A stretch of DNA of 10,719 bases from Desulfobacteraceae bacterium (GTDB lineage: Bacteria > Desulfobacterota > Desulfobacteria > Desulfobacterales > UBA11574). The position numbers and the translations under genes are program-made. The notes below the pieces were generated by a model. It searched no databases, had not been told where the DNA came from, and saw only the letters and a list, made by a program, of their open reading frames with translations. The stretch lies in NCBI GenBank assembly GCA_002868985.1, contig PKTV01000423.1, positions 1 to 10,719 on the forward strand, given 5' to 3'. Shown one piece after another: positions 3,924-10,494 of the stretch. The first letter of the stretch is position 1. Each line of letters begins with the position of its first letter.

Positions 3924-4127
3924 ATGGCAAAAGAAACCTTTTCCATACCCAATATTTCCTGTGGCCATTGTGTGATGTCGATCAAGAATGAGTTGAATGA
4001 ACTGGAAGGCGTCAAAACCGTGGAAGGTGATCCTGGGAATAAAAGTATAACGGTTGAATTTGAGTCCCCTGTCACACTGGAACAAATCAAAGAAACACTC
4101 AAGGAGATTAATTATCCGGCAGTTTAA
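3924..4127 (+). CDS. Heavy-metal-associated (HMA) domain protein, CopZ/MerP-like metallochaperone
   Basis: 67 residues, the full length of a free HMA domain. The metal-binding loop is ISCGHCVMSI with Cys13 and Cys16 (CxxC), followed by the expected helix IKNELNEL, a strand VKTVEGDP, and the closing IKETLKEINYP. Such proteins bind soft metals (Cu+, Hg2+) in the cytoplasm or, with a signal peptide, the periplasm; no signal peptide is present here. A strong Shine-Dalgarno AAAGGAGG ends 9 bases before the ATG. Only 34 bases separate its stop from the proposed hgcA start, so the two are probably cotranscribed. This position suggests delivery or buffering of Hg(II) for HgcA, but copper handling cannot be excluded from the sequence. 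Confidence 0.88.
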   Translation: MAKETFSIPNISCGHCVMSIKNELNELEGVKTVEGDPGNKSITVEFESPVTLEQIKETLKEINYPAV

Positions 4128-4161
4128 CCCGGAATCGCGAGCCGAACTAGAGGAATATCCG

Positions 4162-5331
4162 ATGACGTTAGAACCCATTGATCTATTAAAAGATCGACCT
4201 GTTCAAGAACAAGGACCGTTGCTATCGACGGATACCAGTTGCTGACCTCAGCAACAAAAGGCTCAGTTGAGTCGTCCGGATATGAATCAACCCTTTATCA
4301 TTGGTTCGGTTAAGACACCGACAGGTGATATACCCAAAATTTCTTCCGATCTGAGCCGGCGGGATCACTGGGGAAGCATTAAGGCCCGTTGGGGTGTGGG
4401 TCGCATGCACTATACTGTCGACCCAGGTCTTTATGCCCTTGGGGCGCCGAATGAACGATCACCTGTTCTGGTTACAGCCAATTACAAAATGAGTTTTGAT
4501 CGATTGCGTGAAGCGCTTTCCAACCGGCATGCATGGATTTTGGTTCTGGACACCAAGGGCATCAATGTCTGGTGTGCGGCCGGGAAAGGGACATTTGGGA
4601 CGGATGAACTGGTTCGGCGTATCGAATATAGCCAATTAAATCGCGTGGTATCCCATACGGAGTTGATTCTACCCCAACTGGCAGGCCCCGGTGTTGCAGC
4701 CCACAAGGTGAAAAAACGAACCGGTTTCAAAGTGTTATACGGTCCTATTCAGGCCACCGATTTGCCGGCTTTTCTGGATGCCGGCATGGAGGCAACCCCC
4801 AACATGCGGCGAAAGACATTTACAATGCTTGAAAGGGTGGTTTTAATACCCGTTGAACTGGTAAGCGCTTTTAAATGGTCATTACTGATACTGCCGGCCT
4901 TTTTCTTATTGGGAGGGGTGGGCGCACCATCCGGATTTTGGCAGGGTGTATTGAACGATGGGCTCTTTGCCGTACTCCATCTGCTGGGTGCGCTGTTGGC
5001 CGGAGCAGTTCTAACACCGATTCTTTTACCATGGCTTCCAGGTCGAGCTTTTTCTCAAAAAGGCTTGATCATGGGCCTGATAACAACACTGTTTATCACT
5101 CTTTTCGGAGCGTTTTATCTTAACATTCGGCAAGATTATATGAATATCATGGCCTGGTTCTTTCTGGCTCCGGCGTTATCGGCCTATCTTGCTATGAATT
5201 TTACCGGCGCTTCGACCTACACGTCTCTTTCCGGTGTCAAAAAAGAGATGAGATGGGCCGTACCCCTTGAAATTGTGGGTGGAGTGGCGGGTTTGACCCT
5301 CTGGGTAGGATCGCGATTTGTCTTACCCTAA
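4162..5331 (+). CDS. hgcA: HgcA, corrinoid protein of mercury methylation, with candidate selenocysteine (UGA) at residue 28
   Basis: HgcA transfers a methyl group from its corrinoid to Hg(II), forming methylmercury. The signature cap-helix motif NVWCAAGK is at 4564-4587; its Cys138 is the lower corrinoid ligand known in the family. The soluble corrinoid domain is followed by five predicted membrane segments (about residues 235-388: SLLILPAFFLLGGV, LHLLGALLAGAVLTPILL, LIMGLITTLFITLFGAF, MAWFFLAPALSAYLAM, VPLEIVGGVAGLTLWVG). The start at 4162 has AGAGGA 7 bases before it and reads 27 codons to ...DTSC, then UGA, then PQQQKAQLSRPD in the same frame into the conserved body. If UGA were a stop, the protein would need TTG 4267 or ATG 4282, neither with a good ribosome binding site. 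Homologues, from memory, often have a Cys pair in this N-terminal segment. HgcA identity is very secure; the Sec reading and N-terminus are inference. Confidence 0.93.
4243..4273 (+). promoter_or_regulatory. In-frame UGA with candidate bacterial SECIS hairpin
   Basis: UGA at 4243-4245 follows a Cys codon. Downstream, GGCUC (4260-4264) pairs with GAGUC (4269-4273) around the loop AGUU. This gives a 5 bp stem (one G-U) with the loop beginning 19 bases after the UGA, and G and U in the loop, as in known bacterial SECIS elements such as that of fdhF. An alternative hairpin TTGCTGA/TCAGCAA overlaps the UGA itself. The stem is short, so this is suggestive and not conclusive. Confidence 0.5.
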
Positions 5332-5502
5332 TTGAGCGAAAGCCGATGATACCCCATGGCCTGCGGCCTGACTCCTACGGTGTCTTCGTTATCAAGGGCT
5401 CGAAGTAGACGACTACGACTTCGCCCTTGATGCCTTTCGCAGTGAAACGAAGATCCCGTTATCGGGGGAATATGGGGCATCCTCGACTTTCGTCAATTAG
5501 GG
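5326..5502. repeat. 177 bp nested palindrome between hgcA and hgcB
   Basis: The outer arms 5326-5357 and 5471-5502 are an imperfect ~31 bp inverted repeat (shared blocks CCCTAATTGA, CGAAAG, CGA, CCCCAT); the left arm includes the hgcA stop codon. Inner pairings: TCTTCGTT 5383-5390 with 5446-5453, ATCAAGGGC 5391-5399 with 5423-5431, and GTAG-ACGA-CTAC at 5405-5416. No ORF is inside. It would form a long branched RNA hairpin in any hgcA-hgcB transcript. Confidence 0.75.
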
Positions 5503-5522
5503 TTTTTTAAAGGTCGATGAAA

Positions 5523-6073: not shown

Positions 6074-6107
6074 GCGCTAAAATAACCGGCTCATTAGGAT
6101 CGTGGAA

Positions 6108-6506
6108 ATGACGGAAACCGCCCTTTTAGACTACATGTACATCTTTCTTTTCCTAGTTGTAGGATTTATTGGAGGATTTGCACCTTTTATTATCAACTGG
6201 TTTATCCGCCCCAAAAGAACACATCTAAATAAATCTCTGAATACATACGAATGCGGGATGGATATTTACGGAAAAGCCTGGGATTACCGTTACGGCGTTT
6301 CCTATTACCTTTACGCACTCATTTTTCTCGCATTTGATGTCGATATCCTGTATCTGTTTCCGGTTGCAGCGGCCTTTGACAAGGTATCCGGCATTCGTGG
6401 AATTGTGGAGTTTTTCATCTTTTTGGGCATTCTGATCCTGGCCATCGTTTATGCTTGGGCTAAAGGAGTCTTCACGTGGGAGAGGAAAATAAAAGTTCGC
6501 CGATAA
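6108..6506 (+). CDS. nuoA: NADH-quinone oxidoreductase (complex I) subunit A
   Basis: About 132 residues, normal for NuoA, with three membrane helices: [40 protein letters not shown] and [20 protein letters not shown]. The loop between the first two contains YECGMD and the second helix [10 protein letters not shown], both family hallmarks near the quinone channel. ATG 6108 is favoured over GTG 6102, because TAGGA at 6095-6099 is 8 bases from the ATG and only 2 from the GTG. Its 3' end overlaps nuoB by 31 bases. It is the first gene of the operon. Confidence 0.95.
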
Positions 6507-7108
6507 GACCCGACTTAGATGCATATGCCGCATATTTAAAGTCTGAATCCTGTCGACCGGTTGTCGAACAAGGCAGAGAATATGGTGAAGGGCCTCTGTT
6601 GCGCATGAAGTTGGCCGACACCATTATGAAGCTGTGCCAGGCGAATTCACTGTGGCCCATGACCTTCGGCATCGCTTGCTGCGCAATAGAGATGATGGGA
6701 ACCGGTATGGCCCGTTTCGACATCTCCAGATATGGATCTGAAGTTTTCAGACCGTCGCCCAGACAATCGGATCTGATGATTGTGGCCGGAACGGTGAACA
6801 AAAAACTTGCTCCGGTACTTTTGACGCTCTACGAACAAATGCCGTCTCCCAAGTGGGTCATTGCCCTGGGCAACTGCGCTATCTCAGGAGGACCCTTCAA
6901 GGTCAAGGAAAATTATAATATCATCGAGGGCGCCGACAAACTGATCCCTGTGGATGTCTATGTTCCCGGCTGCCCCCCCCGTCCGGAAGGTCTCATCGAA
7001 GGGATTCTTAAAGTTCAGGAAAAGATTACCGGCATCCGTCATCCAATTCCCCAGAATCGTCATCCCAAATCTCCTTTGAAAAAAATAAAAGGATTGAGGG
7101 TGAAGTAA
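6476..7108 (+). CDS. nuoB: Complex I subunit B, carries the N2 [4Fe-4S] cluster
   Basis: NuoB passes electrons from the cluster chain to quinone. The N2 ligands are visible: the tandem Cys68-Cys69 in [11 protein letters not shown], Cys134 in [10 protein letters not shown] and Cys166 in [11 protein letters not shown]. The start is GTG at 6476, with AAAGGAG 7 bases before it, inside the end of nuoA. At 210 residues it has a Lys/Arg-rich C-terminal tail beyond the usual fold. An eight-C run encodes the CysProProArg segment; the frame is intact across it. Its stop overlaps the nuoC start (TAATG), showing tight coupling. Confidence 0.96.
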
Positions 7109-7653
7109 TGGCAAAACAAAACAAAGATTATAATAAAGATTTTCTGCATCAAGGATTTGATGCCGCCGAGACGGACTATGACCAGCGGGGATATCACCTG
7201 GACGTTGTGTTGGATGTGAATCAGGTTCGAAAATTTGCCCAAACAGCCTATGACCTTGGTTTCTATATCGTATTTGTTGCAGGGCTTCATGTTCGGCCGG
7301 ATGAAGGGCACGATAAGGAGTGTTCCGGCCTGGAGGTGGTTTATCAATTTGCACGGTATGATCAACTGTATCGGATTAAGGGACGCGTTTCCGTGCCCAA
7401 TACCCTCGAGATTCCAAGCATATCCGATATTTATCAGGGAGCTGACTGGCATGAAAGAGAAACCCGCGATTTTTATGGTGTTGTTTTTGACGGTCATCCC
7501 AACATGAAACCCCTTCTGCTTTCTGAAGAAGATCCGGACTTTCATCCGCTGTTAAAGGAAGAAAAAAAGCTGAAATCTCTTGACGAGGTTTCTTGGCAGC
7601 CAGAGGCGCCGGAAGTTGCAAAAGGAGAAACCGAGGCCGAAACCGGCCAATAG
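7108..7653 (+). CDS. nuoC: Complex I subunit C (30 kDa subunit)
   Basis: 181 residues. The 30 kDa signature is at 116-138: ERETRDFYGVVFDGHPNMKP, followed by LLL. The N-terminal alpha/beta domain is present (LDVVLDVNQVRKFAQTAYDLGFY). The N-terminus is somewhat short, and the C-terminal tail is acidic and Lys-rich (KLKSLDEVSWQPEAPEVAKG). NuoC helps hold the hydrophilic Q module together. NuoC is separate here and not fused to NuoD as in Escherichia coli. The start overlaps the nuoB stop by one base. Confidence 0.95.
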   Translation: MAKQNKDYNKDFLHQGFDAAETDYDQRGYHLDVVLDVNQVRKFAQTAYDLGFYIVFVAGLHVRPDEGHDKECSGLEVVYQFARYDQLYRIKGRVSVPNTLEIPSISDIYQGADWHERETRDFYGVVFDGHPNMKPLLLSEEDPDFHPLLKEEKKLKSLDEVSWQPEAPEVAKGETEAETGQ

Positions 7654-7691
7654 TATGACTTTATAACCGACGATAAAAAGACAAATTCATC

Positions 7692-8804
7692 ATGCTCGAA
7701 TCAGAATATCAGGAACAGAACCGCTTCTTTTTAAATATGGGCCCCCAGCATCCCAGCACCCACGGCGTGCTTCTCATTGTGCTGGAGATGGAAGGTGAAT
7801 ACGTCCTCGATCCCCAACCGGTGCTCGGGTTTATCCACCGAATGCACGAAAAGATGGGAGAGTCCAGACCTTGTCAGGGCTTTATGCCCAATACTGCCAG
7901 GATGGATTATGTTTGTGCGCTTCCTTACAATCACGGGTACGTTTCTCTCATTGAGCGAAAAGCGGGAATCGAGGTCCCAAAAAGAGCGGAGTATATCCGG
8001 GTCATTACATCGGAGCTGAACCGGGTTGCCAGCCACCTGCTCTGGCTCGGCGCCTACCTTCTCGATCTTGGTGCGTTTACCCCCATTCTTTACGGTTTTG
8101 ATGACCGTGAACACATCTTAGATATTTTAGAAAGCATTACTGGTTCCAGACTCACTTACTGCTATTACCGTTTTGGCGGTGTATACCAGGATATCGACGA
8201 CACGTTTATAGAGGCGACCCGAGCCTTTATTAAACGACTGCGCAAACGTTACGTGATTTATGAGAAGCTGGTGACCAAAAATATTATTTTCATCAAACGT
8301 GCGGAAAACATCGGAATTGTTTCGCCGGATATGGCGCTTCGATACGGCATGACCGGTCCGAACCTGAGAGGATCGGGTATTGCTTATGATGTTCGCAAGA
8401 ATGAACCGTATTCTGTTTATCCTGAATTTGATTTTGAGATTCCGGTTGGAGAACAAGGGGACTGTCTGGACCGATATATGGTTCGTGTCCGGGAGATCGA
8501 ACAAAGCCTCAGGATTATAGAGCAGGCGCTGGATCGGCTGCCGGATGGACCGATTCGAGCCAAGGTGCCAAAGAATATAAAGCTGACTCCCGGTGACTGC
8601 AATTTCGCCGTGGAAGCTGCAAGAGGAGAGCTGTCATACTACCTGGTGGGAGATGGAACGAGTACCCCATACAGGTTGAAAATCAGGGTTCCGTCATATT
8701 CCAACTTAAGCTGTCTCCCGGAGCTGGCACGCGGGATTCTATTGCCCGACCTGGTTTCTATTTTGGGGAGCTTCGATCTGGTGATACCGGAAATCGATCG
8801 GTAG
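7692..8804 (+). CDS. nuoD: Complex I subunit D (49 kDa, quinone-site subunit)
   Basis: 370 residues. NuoD forms the quinone pocket with NuoB and descends from [NiFe]-hydrogenase large subunits. Family blocks are in order: NMGPQHPSTHGVLLIVLEMEG (15-35), the HRMHEK block (49-54), TSELNRVASHLLWLG, GSRLTYCYYRFGGV, TGPNLRGSGIAYDVRKNEPY, and the C-terminal end SILGSFDLVIPEIDR. The start at 7692 is 38 bases after nuoC with only a weak ribosome binding site. It is followed by a 266 bp non-coding gap, where nuoE, nuoF and nuoG would stand in a 14-subunit operon. Confidence 0.96.
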   Translation: MLESEYQEQNRFFLNMGPQHPSTHGVLLIVLEMEGEYVLDPQPVLGFIHRMHEKMGESRPCQGFMPNTARMDYVCALPYNHGYVSLIERKAGIEVPKRAEYIRVITSELNRVASHLLWLGAYLLDLGAFTPILYGFDDREHILDILESITGSRLTYCYYRFGGVYQDIDDTFIEATRAFIKRLRKRYVIYEKLVTKNIIFIKRAENIGIVSPDMALRYGMTGPNLRGSGIAYDVRKNEPYSVYPEFDFEIPVGEQGDCLDRYMVRVREIEQSLRIIEQALDRLPDGPIRAKVPKNIKLTPGDCNFAVEAARGELSYYLVGDGTSTPYRLKIRVPSYSNLSCLPELARGILLPDLVSILGSFDLVIPEIDR

Positions 8805-8830
8805 AAAATGTATAGGCGCTTATTTTTTCG

Positions 8831-8895
8831 TTGCCACGGAGACACTAAGGCACGAAGAAAAAATAATAAATATATTTTTTGTGCCTTTGTGGCAA
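8831..8895. repeat. Inverted repeat of the 'CCACGGAGACAC' type between nuoD and nuoH
   Basis: TTGCCAC (8831-8837) pairs with GTGGCAA (8889-8895), AAGGCAC (8847-8853) pairs with GTGCCTT (8881-8887), and the arms continue into A/T-rich complementary runs. The left arm has nine extra bases. The sequence resembles the widespread intergenic 'CCACGGAG-ACAC-AGGCAC' repeats that I recall from many delta-proteobacterial genomes. Confidence 0.65.
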
Positions 8896-8910
8896 TAAAT
8901 ATCTAAATTA

Positions 8911-8988
8911 TTAACTTTGAAGTAATTAAAGTTGTAGAATTCTAAAAAGTTAATATTAAAATTCGGAGCACAGCGACTCCTTAACTTT
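8911..8988. repeat. Cluster of TTAACTTT direct and inverted copies
   Basis: TTAACTTT at 8911-8918 and again at 8981-8988, with its complement AAAGTTAA at 8946-8953. A GGAG...CTCC dyad lies at 8965-8980. It is AT-rich, with no ORF. It may be part of a composite palindromic insertion or a regulatory site ahead of nuoH. Confidence 0.45.
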
Positions 8989-9070
8989 AGCTCACTTGTA
9001 ACTTTTTCGATTTGGCTTGGGTATGGCTTTGAGTAAACCAACTTTTCGAACTATTTATTAACTAAAGAAT

Positions 9071-10054
9071 ATGGAAACGATTTCAATACTACCGCCTGAA
9101 CTGATCCGGATGGTGATCGCCGCCGTCATCATCATTTCATTCCTTTTTCTCAACGCCATTATGATGGGGTATGCGGAGCGGAAAATCGCAGGACACGTTC
9201 AACGGCGTCCCGGCCCCATGGAAGTGGGGTCACACGGCATCCTTCAAATGGTTGTCGATGGTGTAAAGCTGGTGGGAAAAGAGTTGCTGATCCCGTTCAA
9301 TGTGGATCGTACCCTCTTTAGGGTGGCGCCGCTTTTGTCATTTACGCCGGTGATTCTTCCCCTTCTTGTGATCCCCTTTAGTGAAAAACTTCAGGCAAGG
9401 GATTTGAATCTGGGTCTTATTTTCATTGTTACCATGGGCTCCGTCAATGTCATGGCGCTTTTGGTCGGCGGATGGGGCTCCAATAACAAATACTCTATGT
9501 TCGGCGCCATGCGGGCCGTAGCCCAATCCATTGCTTATGAAATCCCGATTTTGCTTTCATTACTCGCCGTAGCTCTCATGTGTAATACGTTCAGTCTTAA
9601 GGAAATTGTCGGCGCACAACAAAACATCTGGTTCGTTTTTTTACAACCGGTGGCCTTTATCATATACATTGTTGCAGGACTTGCAGAAACCAACCGTAAT
9701 CCATTTGACCTTCCGGAGGCTGAAAGCGAACTCACAGCAGGGTTTCACACCGAATACAGCGGAATGGGATTTTCACTTTTTTTTATAGGAGAGTACACCA
9801 ATATGTTCATCGTCGCTTCGTTGGCGACGGTTTTATTTTTAGGCGGCTGGCACGGACCTCATCTTCCCTACGGTGAATACCTGGGTGTGATCTGGTTTTT
9901 TCTGAAGGTCTATTTTCTGTTGTTTCTTATGATTATGGTGCGATGGACATATCCCCGGGTACGTTTCGATCAATTGCTTAACTTTGCCTGGAAGTATTTG
10001 GTCCCCTTTTCTCTTGTGAATCTTTTGATAACAGCAGTGCTTGTTAAACTATGA
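9071..10054 (+). CDS. nuoH: Complex I subunit H (membrane subunit joining the Q module to the pump arm)
   Basis: 327 residues with about eight membrane helices. Hallmarks: AERKIAGHVQRRPGP (36-49), then GVKLVGKELLIP (64-75) at the quinone tunnel, and the acidic segment AETNRNPFDLPEAESELTAG (205-224) with Glu206, Asp213, Glu216, Glu218 and Glu220, followed by HTEYSG and FIGEYTNM. The ATG at 9071 is preceded only by a weak AAAGAA. It is the first gene after the nuoD-nuoH gap, and its stop overlaps the nuoI start by ATGA. Confidence 0.96.
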   Translation: METISILPPELIRMVIAAVIIISFLFLNAIMMGYAERKIAGHVQRRPGPMEVGSHGILQMVVDGVKLVGKELLIPFNVDRTLFRVAPLLSFTPVILPLLVIPFSEKLQARDLNLGLIFIVTMGSVNVMALLVGGWGSNNKYSMFGAMRAVAQSIAYEIPILLSLLAVALMCNTFSLKEIVGAQQNIWFVFLQPVAFIIYIVAGLAETNRNPFDLPEAESELTAGFHTEYSGMGFSLFFIGEYTNMFIVASLATVLFLGGWHGPHLPYGEYLGVIWFFLKVYFLLFLMIMVRWTYPRVRFDQLLNFAWKYLVPFSLVNLLITAVLVKL

Positions 10055-10494
10055 AACAATATTTTTCAGAGCTCTATACCGGCGGAAAGAGTTTGGTTGA
10101 AGGACTCGGCGTCACCATGAAGGCGCTGTTCCAACCTATTGTTACGGTGCAGTATCCCAGGGAAGAGATTGATATTACGCCCAATTTTCGGGGGCACATC
10201 GATCTTATTCTGGACCCGAAGAAAAATTCATATCTGTGCATCAGCTGCGGAATGTGTCAAAAATCCTGCCCTTCCGACTGTATCAAAATCAAAGGTAAAA
10301 AAATGGAGGGAGAAAAAAAGAAGAGCCTGGTTCTTTTTGAGCTGGACTTTACCAAATGCAGCCTGTGCGGGACATGTGTTGAGGTCTGCCCAAAAGACGC
10401 ACTTGAGTATTCCCAGGATTACAACCTGGCGGCCTTTACCAAGGAAGCATTTCACTTTGATATCCTCAAACGGCTGGAGGAACGGAGAATATGA
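10051..10494 (+). CDS. nuoI: Complex I subunit I, 2[4Fe-4S] electron carrier
   Basis: 147 residues. Two cluster motifs: CISCGMCQKSCP (Cys63, 66, 69, 73) and CSLCGTCVEVCP (Cys103, 106, 109, 113), which hold N6a and N6b next to N2. The N-terminus has the amphipathic GLGVTMKALFQPIVTVQYP segment typical of the family. In an enzyme without NuoEFG this subunit would be near the entry point for electrons from ferredoxin or a similar donor; that is inference. It overlaps both nuoH and nuoJ by four bases. Confidence 0.96.
   Translation: MKQYFSELYTGGKSLVEGLGVTMKALFQPIVTVQYPREEIDITPNFRGHIDLILDPKKNSYLCISCGMCQKSCPSDCIKIKGKKMEGEKKKSLVLFELDFTKCSLCGTCVEVCPKDALEYSQDYNLAAFTKEAFHFDILKRLEERRI

Follow-up and report, generated by a model that had tools for sequence, protein, structure and literature searches.

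The UGA codon at position 4,243 in the hgcA gene of a Desulfobacteraceae bacterium is very probably decoded as selenocysteine (Sec), a reading that comparison with related genes strongly supports. HgcA is the bacterial protein that converts mercury to methylmercury. The gene lies on contig PKTV01000423.1 of assembly GCA_002868985.1, and the 10,719 nucleotides of this contig that were analyzed are hereafter called the window. As an earlier note on this DNA had proposed from the window alone, HgcA appears to be a selenoprotein, a proposal now backed in relatives by UGA in the same column, by Cys in its place, and by a covarying hairpin. Should HgcA use selenium, the formation of methylmercury by many sulfate reducers and related bacteria would be tied to the supply of selenium in addition to that of mercury. 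The analysis adds a firm member to the Sec-HgcA proteins, a SECIS hairpin that covaries across the family, and a frequency for the absence of the neighboring Cys.

The gene model was re-derived from the sequence, and all coordinates hold for a frame that opens with a ribosome binding site and the ATG at 4162 and reaches UGA directly after a Cys codon (Table 1). That this frame runs on into undoubted HgcA was also borne out: read through to its stop, which ends at 5331, it matched family NF040863 in a profile search with 467.2 bits (cut-off 275), and the product of the adjoining hgcB matched NF040864 with 116.9 bits (cut-off 99). The cap-helix motif N(V/I)WCAAGK is a hallmark of HgcA, and residues 135-142 of the translation read NVWCAAGK. 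By its sequence the product is a member of the HgcA family, predicted to methylate mercury. In an AlphaFold2 model the corrinoid domain is followed by a C-terminal half rich in helices, which we take to be the membrane domain. Residues 85-209 matched the large (gamma) subunit of the corrinoid/iron-sulfur protein in sequence (PDB 4djd, 2h9a, and 4c1n), a match that covers neither the N-terminal arm nor the helix-rich half.

Table 1. Features of the window around hgcA
Feature	Position	Strand	Basis
Small HMA-domain (MerP/CopZ-like) protein gene	3924..4127	+	PF00403
Ribosome binding site of hgcA, AGAGG	4149..4153	+	sequence
hgcA, 389 codons plus stop, UGA predicted to be read as Sec28	4162..5331	+	translation; NF040863; CdhD domain
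27-codon segment of hgcA preceding the UGA	4162..4242	+	peptide recognizable in L015-L018; pLDDT <50
TGC codon, Cys27 of hgcA	4240-4242	+	sequence
UGA codon, predicted selenocysteine 28, next to Cys27	4243..4245	+	same-column TGA in relatives
Candidate bacterial SECIS-type hairpin, GGCUC-AGUU-GAGUC	4260..4273	+	stem conservation in UGA forms; covariation
Hairpin parts: GGCTC, loop AGTT, GAGTC	4260-4264, 4265-4268, 4269-4273	+	sequence
hgcB ferredoxin, Cys form (GVGC), end SCC-TAA	5517..5846	+	NF040864

A 2026 review (PMC13188914) lists HgcA as a selenoprotein with the motif CU, family NF040863, and one Sec, lists HgcB with the motif GVGU, and cites Zhang and Gladyshev 2008 and Haft and Gwadz 2023 for Sec-HgcA; a 2024 paper stated that some hgcA homologs may be selenoproteins. 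The statement in the earlier note that no described Sec form of HgcA was known is thus wrong, and HgcA of the window is a further member of a described kind. We could not confirm the credit given by the review to the 2008 paper (PMC2398784), whose text, searched by term, names neither CO dehydrogenase nor acetyl-CoA nor corrinoid. The window protein shows no difference from the described Sec-HgcA, being of the same family with one predicted Sec beside a Cys and a UGA that would be decoded. It shares its core and the protein position of the residue with Cys-HgcA (CCG or CxC), which has a Cys codon instead of UGA. The partner protein has a described Sec form of its own (Sec-HgcB, GVGU, NF040864), from which HgcB of the window differs in ending its motif with Cys (GVGC).

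The UGA column and its hairpin in related genes

Conservation of the UGA was analyzed in the best 80 of at least 580 confirmed hgcA loci from a genome collection (hereafter the best-80 sample, to which locus numbers up to L093 refer unless a genome is named). TGA occupied the same column in 40 of these 80 relatives, and 38 of the 80 had no stop there but for the most part CC, CxC, or one Cys, which is the pattern of Cys or UGA that the earlier note had suggested looking for; in the remaining two, L044 and L057, the sequence ends short of the column. The 40 relatives, L070 included, and the window together make up the 41 UGA forms. Cultured bacteria with the UGA form include Desulfacinum infernum and D. 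hydrothermale (L082, L093) and strain NaphS2 (L087). Thirty of the 38 loci lacking UGA were placed by script and form the Cys set. The other eight, for which the script obtained no match, were left out (L047, L052, L071, L075, L077, L079, L083, and L091); CC or CxC is visible at the column in L052, L075, and L091, and neither Cys nor Sec in L071, L077, and L079.

Among the 41 UGA forms of the best-80 sample, window included, the residue before the UGA is Cys in 32, Gly in four, Thr in two, and Ser, Leu, or Gln in one each. The Cys-Sec pair that had been proposed from the window is therefore not supported as obligatory, another residue standing before the UGA in nine of the 41, and the wider set departs to that extent from the published CU motif. 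Such forms, possibly the less known part of these results, and the decayed hairpins described below were not found in the available parts of the literature searched, to which Haft and Gwadz 2023, the likeliest source, did not belong.

A second sample was drawn from the order of the window (194 genomes, 30 hgcA loci fetched). UGA was present at the column in 11 of the 30 loci, window included, and CCG in 15 of the other 19. Judged by sequence, several of these genes are already in the first sample, whereas L130, L135, L137, L138, and L140 appear to be additional. In a tree built from 81 HgcA cores, 79 of them labelled, the distribution of UGA requires eight changes, at least four of which are forced by starred branches; since the search was short and the root arbitrary, the direction of change between Sec and Cys cannot be read from this tree.

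In bacterial SECIS elements the loop lies 16-37 nt past the UGA and has a G among its first two bases. The hairpin of the window conforms to this rule, and its positions, with the stem starting 14 bases and the loop AGUU 19 bases past the UGA, were re-derived exactly as the earlier note had given them. By itself it makes no more than a fair case: a hairpin of the same quality arose within the permitted range in 34 of 1000 mononucleotide shuffles, and the 48-nt stretch, folded plainly, was not significantly stable (z -0.32, equalled in 69 of 200 shuffles). A pattern count with 0.01 expected is not independent, the pattern having been taken from the window sequence. The case for more than chance comes from the relatives, in which TGA stands in the same column and the full stem goes with UGA.

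All five stem pairs, sought in the homologous place with one codon of shift allowed, were present in 39 of the 41 UGA forms versus none of the 30 Cys forms (best-80 sample). The two incomplete stems among the UGA forms have four pairs (L070) and three of five (L048), and eight of the 30 Cys forms of the best-80 sample have four of five. A hairpin of -4 kcal/mol or lower anywhere in the permitted place was found in 40 of 41 UGA forms versus five of 30 Cys forms of the same best 80 loci. Covariation was scored in the 37 ungapped sequences among the 41 UGA forms, L021, L048, L051, and L062 being left out for length. Pairing holds in 92.8% of the hairpin cells of these sequences, and both sides have changed in four of the six scored pairs. 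Neither the pairing percentage nor the covariation score was matched in any of 500 shuffles; the count of pair types was matched in 76 of 500, and in 15 of the 37 sequences the outermost bases do not pair. Sliding the hairpin by +1 column left a covariation score of 0.150 versus 0.167 but lowered pairing to 59%.

In most UGA forms the hairpin coincides with codons for Ala-Gln-(Val/Leu)-Ser. The full stem is absent, however, from Cys homologs in which Ala-Gln is retained (L030, L032, L045, L063, L069, and others), and constraint on the protein is therefore not a sufficient explanation. On visual inspection, the Cys forms L030, L032, and L069 retain GGCTCAG with a broken 3' arm and have four of the five pairs. 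Judged from sequence, these hairpins look like decayed versions of a SECIS element, in a set in which five other Cys forms are also four-paired.

Possible role of residue 28

Under the reading of the UGA as Sec, the ribosome would start hgcA at the ATG at 4162, and the hairpin at 4260-4273 would recruit SelB with Sec-tRNA to the UGA, so that Sec is inserted after Cys27 and translation continues to the full HgcA of 389 residues. Cys27 and Sec28, on a flexible N-terminal arm ahead of the corrinoid domain, could then hold Hg(II) or hand it over to allow methyl transfer from methyl-cobalamin. We give this role of the arm about an even chance. The C94-C95 pair of HgcB is likewise supposed to hold or hand over Hg(II). 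The AlphaFold2 model of HgcA, built with 19 sequences, has a mean pLDDT of 74.5 and values below 50 for residues 1-35, which fits a flexible arm, although low confidence does not prove flexibility. The 19 aligned UGA forms all agree at residue 28, necessarily so by the choice of sequences. Two observations count against a role in Hg(II) binding: the three loci mentioned above with neither Cys nor Sec at the column (L071, L077, and L079), and a published N-terminal His tag on another HgcA that did not much change activity.

The main rival to an Hg(II)-binding arm is that Sec is inserted but has a redox role, forming a selenylsulfide with Cys27 or with HgcB. According to PMC13188914, a thioredoxin-like fold and a redox motif are found in most characterized selenoproteins, but HgcA matched neither a thioredoxin-like family nor a thioredoxin-like solved structure in sequence searches. 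Sec28 moreover lies in the low-confidence tail of the model, and the Cys partner is missing from the nine UGA forms of the best-80 sample noted above; we consider the redox role rather unlikely.

A more specific version of the Hg(II)-binding arm can be put forward tentatively, at somewhat less than an even chance. The working ligand of HgcA may be the single Sec and not the Cys-Sec pair, the Sec form may be old in Desulfobacterales and their kin, and L030, L032, and L069 may represent later exchanges of Sec for Cys with decaying SECIS hairpins. Methylmercury output in the Sec lineages may then depend on selenium supply.

Start of translation and selenocysteine genes

If the UGA were instead the true stop of a short leader peptide, HgcA would start at TTG 4267 or ATG 4282. 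The database entry for HgcA of the window (P0002) fits the second of these: at 349 aa, its start is inferred from length to be ATG 4282, and it omits the first 40 residues of HgcA, the UGA site and with it a likely mercury ligand. In a scan of the 41 UGA forms of the best-80 sample, a Shine-Dalgarno (SD)-like pattern preceded a start codon within 20 codons past the UGA in 10, and an upstream in-frame ATG in 30; no in-frame ATG upstream of the UGA was seen in L031 and L087. The same scan saw an SD-like pattern before neither start in the window, and TTG 4267..4269, where the stop-to-stop open reading frame on the forward strand begins, was rejected as the real start and ATG 4282..4284, on the same strand, as the main one. 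The first ATG, GTG, or TTG past the UGA comes as late as codon 52 in L070, 32 in L088, and 26 in L060, leaving 51, 31, and 25 codons with no start, so restarting cannot serve all UGA forms; 13 of the 41 (best-80 sample) have no ATG or GTG within 20 codons. A leader peptide also leaves aside the Cys found at this place in most relatives that lack UGA, and the full hairpin that tracks UGA in 39 of 41 versus 0 of 30 forms of the best-80 sample. With selB and tRNA-Sec missing from the assembly counted in its favor (see below), we regard this reading as very improbable.

Coding conservation upstream of the UGA points to Sec as well. Its absence was what the earlier note had named as telling against Sec, and the peptide before the UGA is identical to that of the window at 22 of 27 residues in L015 and at 19 of 27 in L018, which are among the nearest relatives. 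Compared with L015, five of the nine changed codons before the UGA are non-synonymous versus 20 of 57 from the UGA on (300 codons), which indicates that the segment evolves faster than the HgcA core; L018 carries a stretch of N, and its part past the UGA is not comparable. Changes before the UGA fall at codon positions 1, 2, and 3 in numbers of 2, 1, and 6 (L015) and 5, 2, and 8 (L018), an excess at third positions that is less marked for L018; the distribution was flat in the six other pairs compared. The share of non-synonymous changes and the flat distribution elsewhere count against the Sec reading.

The genome of the window is a draft of 577 contigs that is 89.7% complete. A profile search recovered selD (370.9 bits, cut-off 125) with one inner TGA, which lies in CG-TGA-AAKI, the CGU motif (L095:1528-1530). 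Since the TGA falls inside this motif, SelD itself is probably a selenoprotein. The selA family search gave no match, but the start of contig C446 consists of the final 24 codons of this gene. The SelA C-terminus encoded there, RTILDDELQLIEHAFRHMLKKAGS, differs by one residue from that of the near relative G001, which the contig also resembles further on. In the G001 piece, the stretch at about 3.1 to 6.5 kb, where the remainder of selA lies, had no match listed in the window's genome (40 of 121 candidates scored). With its 3' end at a contig end and the remainder unmatched, selA appears to be cut by the assembly.

Neither selB (profile search) nor tRNA-Sec (150 of 227 tRNA candidates scored) was found in the draft. 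The frame with the best selB match was recognized as EF-Tu, which is presumably what it encodes, and six sub-threshold tRNA-Sec hits were assigned by ARAGORN to Trp, Leu, Arg, Tyr, and two Ser. The check for Sec genes suggested earlier thus found selD and the 3' end of selA but neither selB nor selC (tRNA-Sec) in this incomplete draft, and that these two and a full selA were not found in the window's own assembly counts against Sec decoding. The 14-kb contig that carries tRNA-Sec in G001 is matched in the window's genome by only a few repeated stretches (40 of 168 candidates scored), so this part of the genome may just be absent from the assembly. In G001 tRNA-Sec is present and selB is not over the cut-off, an exception among five near relatives of which the other four have selB over it. 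Across 40 relatives, tRNA-Sec scored above the gathering score in 35, with at least 68 bits in 33. selA was found in 38 of 39 genomes with UGA-HgcA versus 32 of 35 genomes without it (best 80 of at least 580 loci; L048 left out of the UGA set, and L044, L052, L057, L075, and L086 in neither set); being near-universal, it is no discriminating test of co-occurrence.

Reading of the UGA as another amino acid, through a suppressor or a changed code, has nothing specific in its favor and is extremely unlikely, given the Cys at this place in relatives and a hairpin and Sec genes that fit Sec. A sequencing error or inactivating mutation, conceivable in a draft of 577 contigs, is already refuted for practical purposes by the same-column TGA in 40 relatives from other assemblies (best-80 sample) and by the conservation of the remainder of HgcA.

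Genes and repeats around hgcA

The HMA-domain protein gene stops 34 bases short of hgcA, and its product contains a GHC motif. By tblastn, such a gene precedes hgcA only in L015-L019 among the best 80 of at least 580 loci, some of which have little upstream DNA. The protein could be a metal chaperone partner of HgcA.

Two dispersed repeats were noted. One, at 5325-5503 between hgcA and hgcB, has inverted ends, with arms at 5337-5357 and 5472-5492 that are 86% complementary; the 196-base stretch searched there gave 39 BLAST matches in the genome, counting the window itself and many short pieces, and an 81% copy also lies behind hgcA in L015. The second, at 1547-1727, matches part of a G001 contig with many genome hits.

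In L069 (4420-4422) and L078 (1811-1813) the hgcB frame meets a TGA right after Cys-Cys, followed by Val-Val, at a place where many other HgcB proteins have CCC. From these sequences, the TGA may represent a further site of Sec in HgcB, or it may shorten the protein. Behind hgcAB, the window carries NADH dehydrogenase-like genes (6102-10494), of which 6102-6506 matched the chain 3 family and the rest were judged from their translations.
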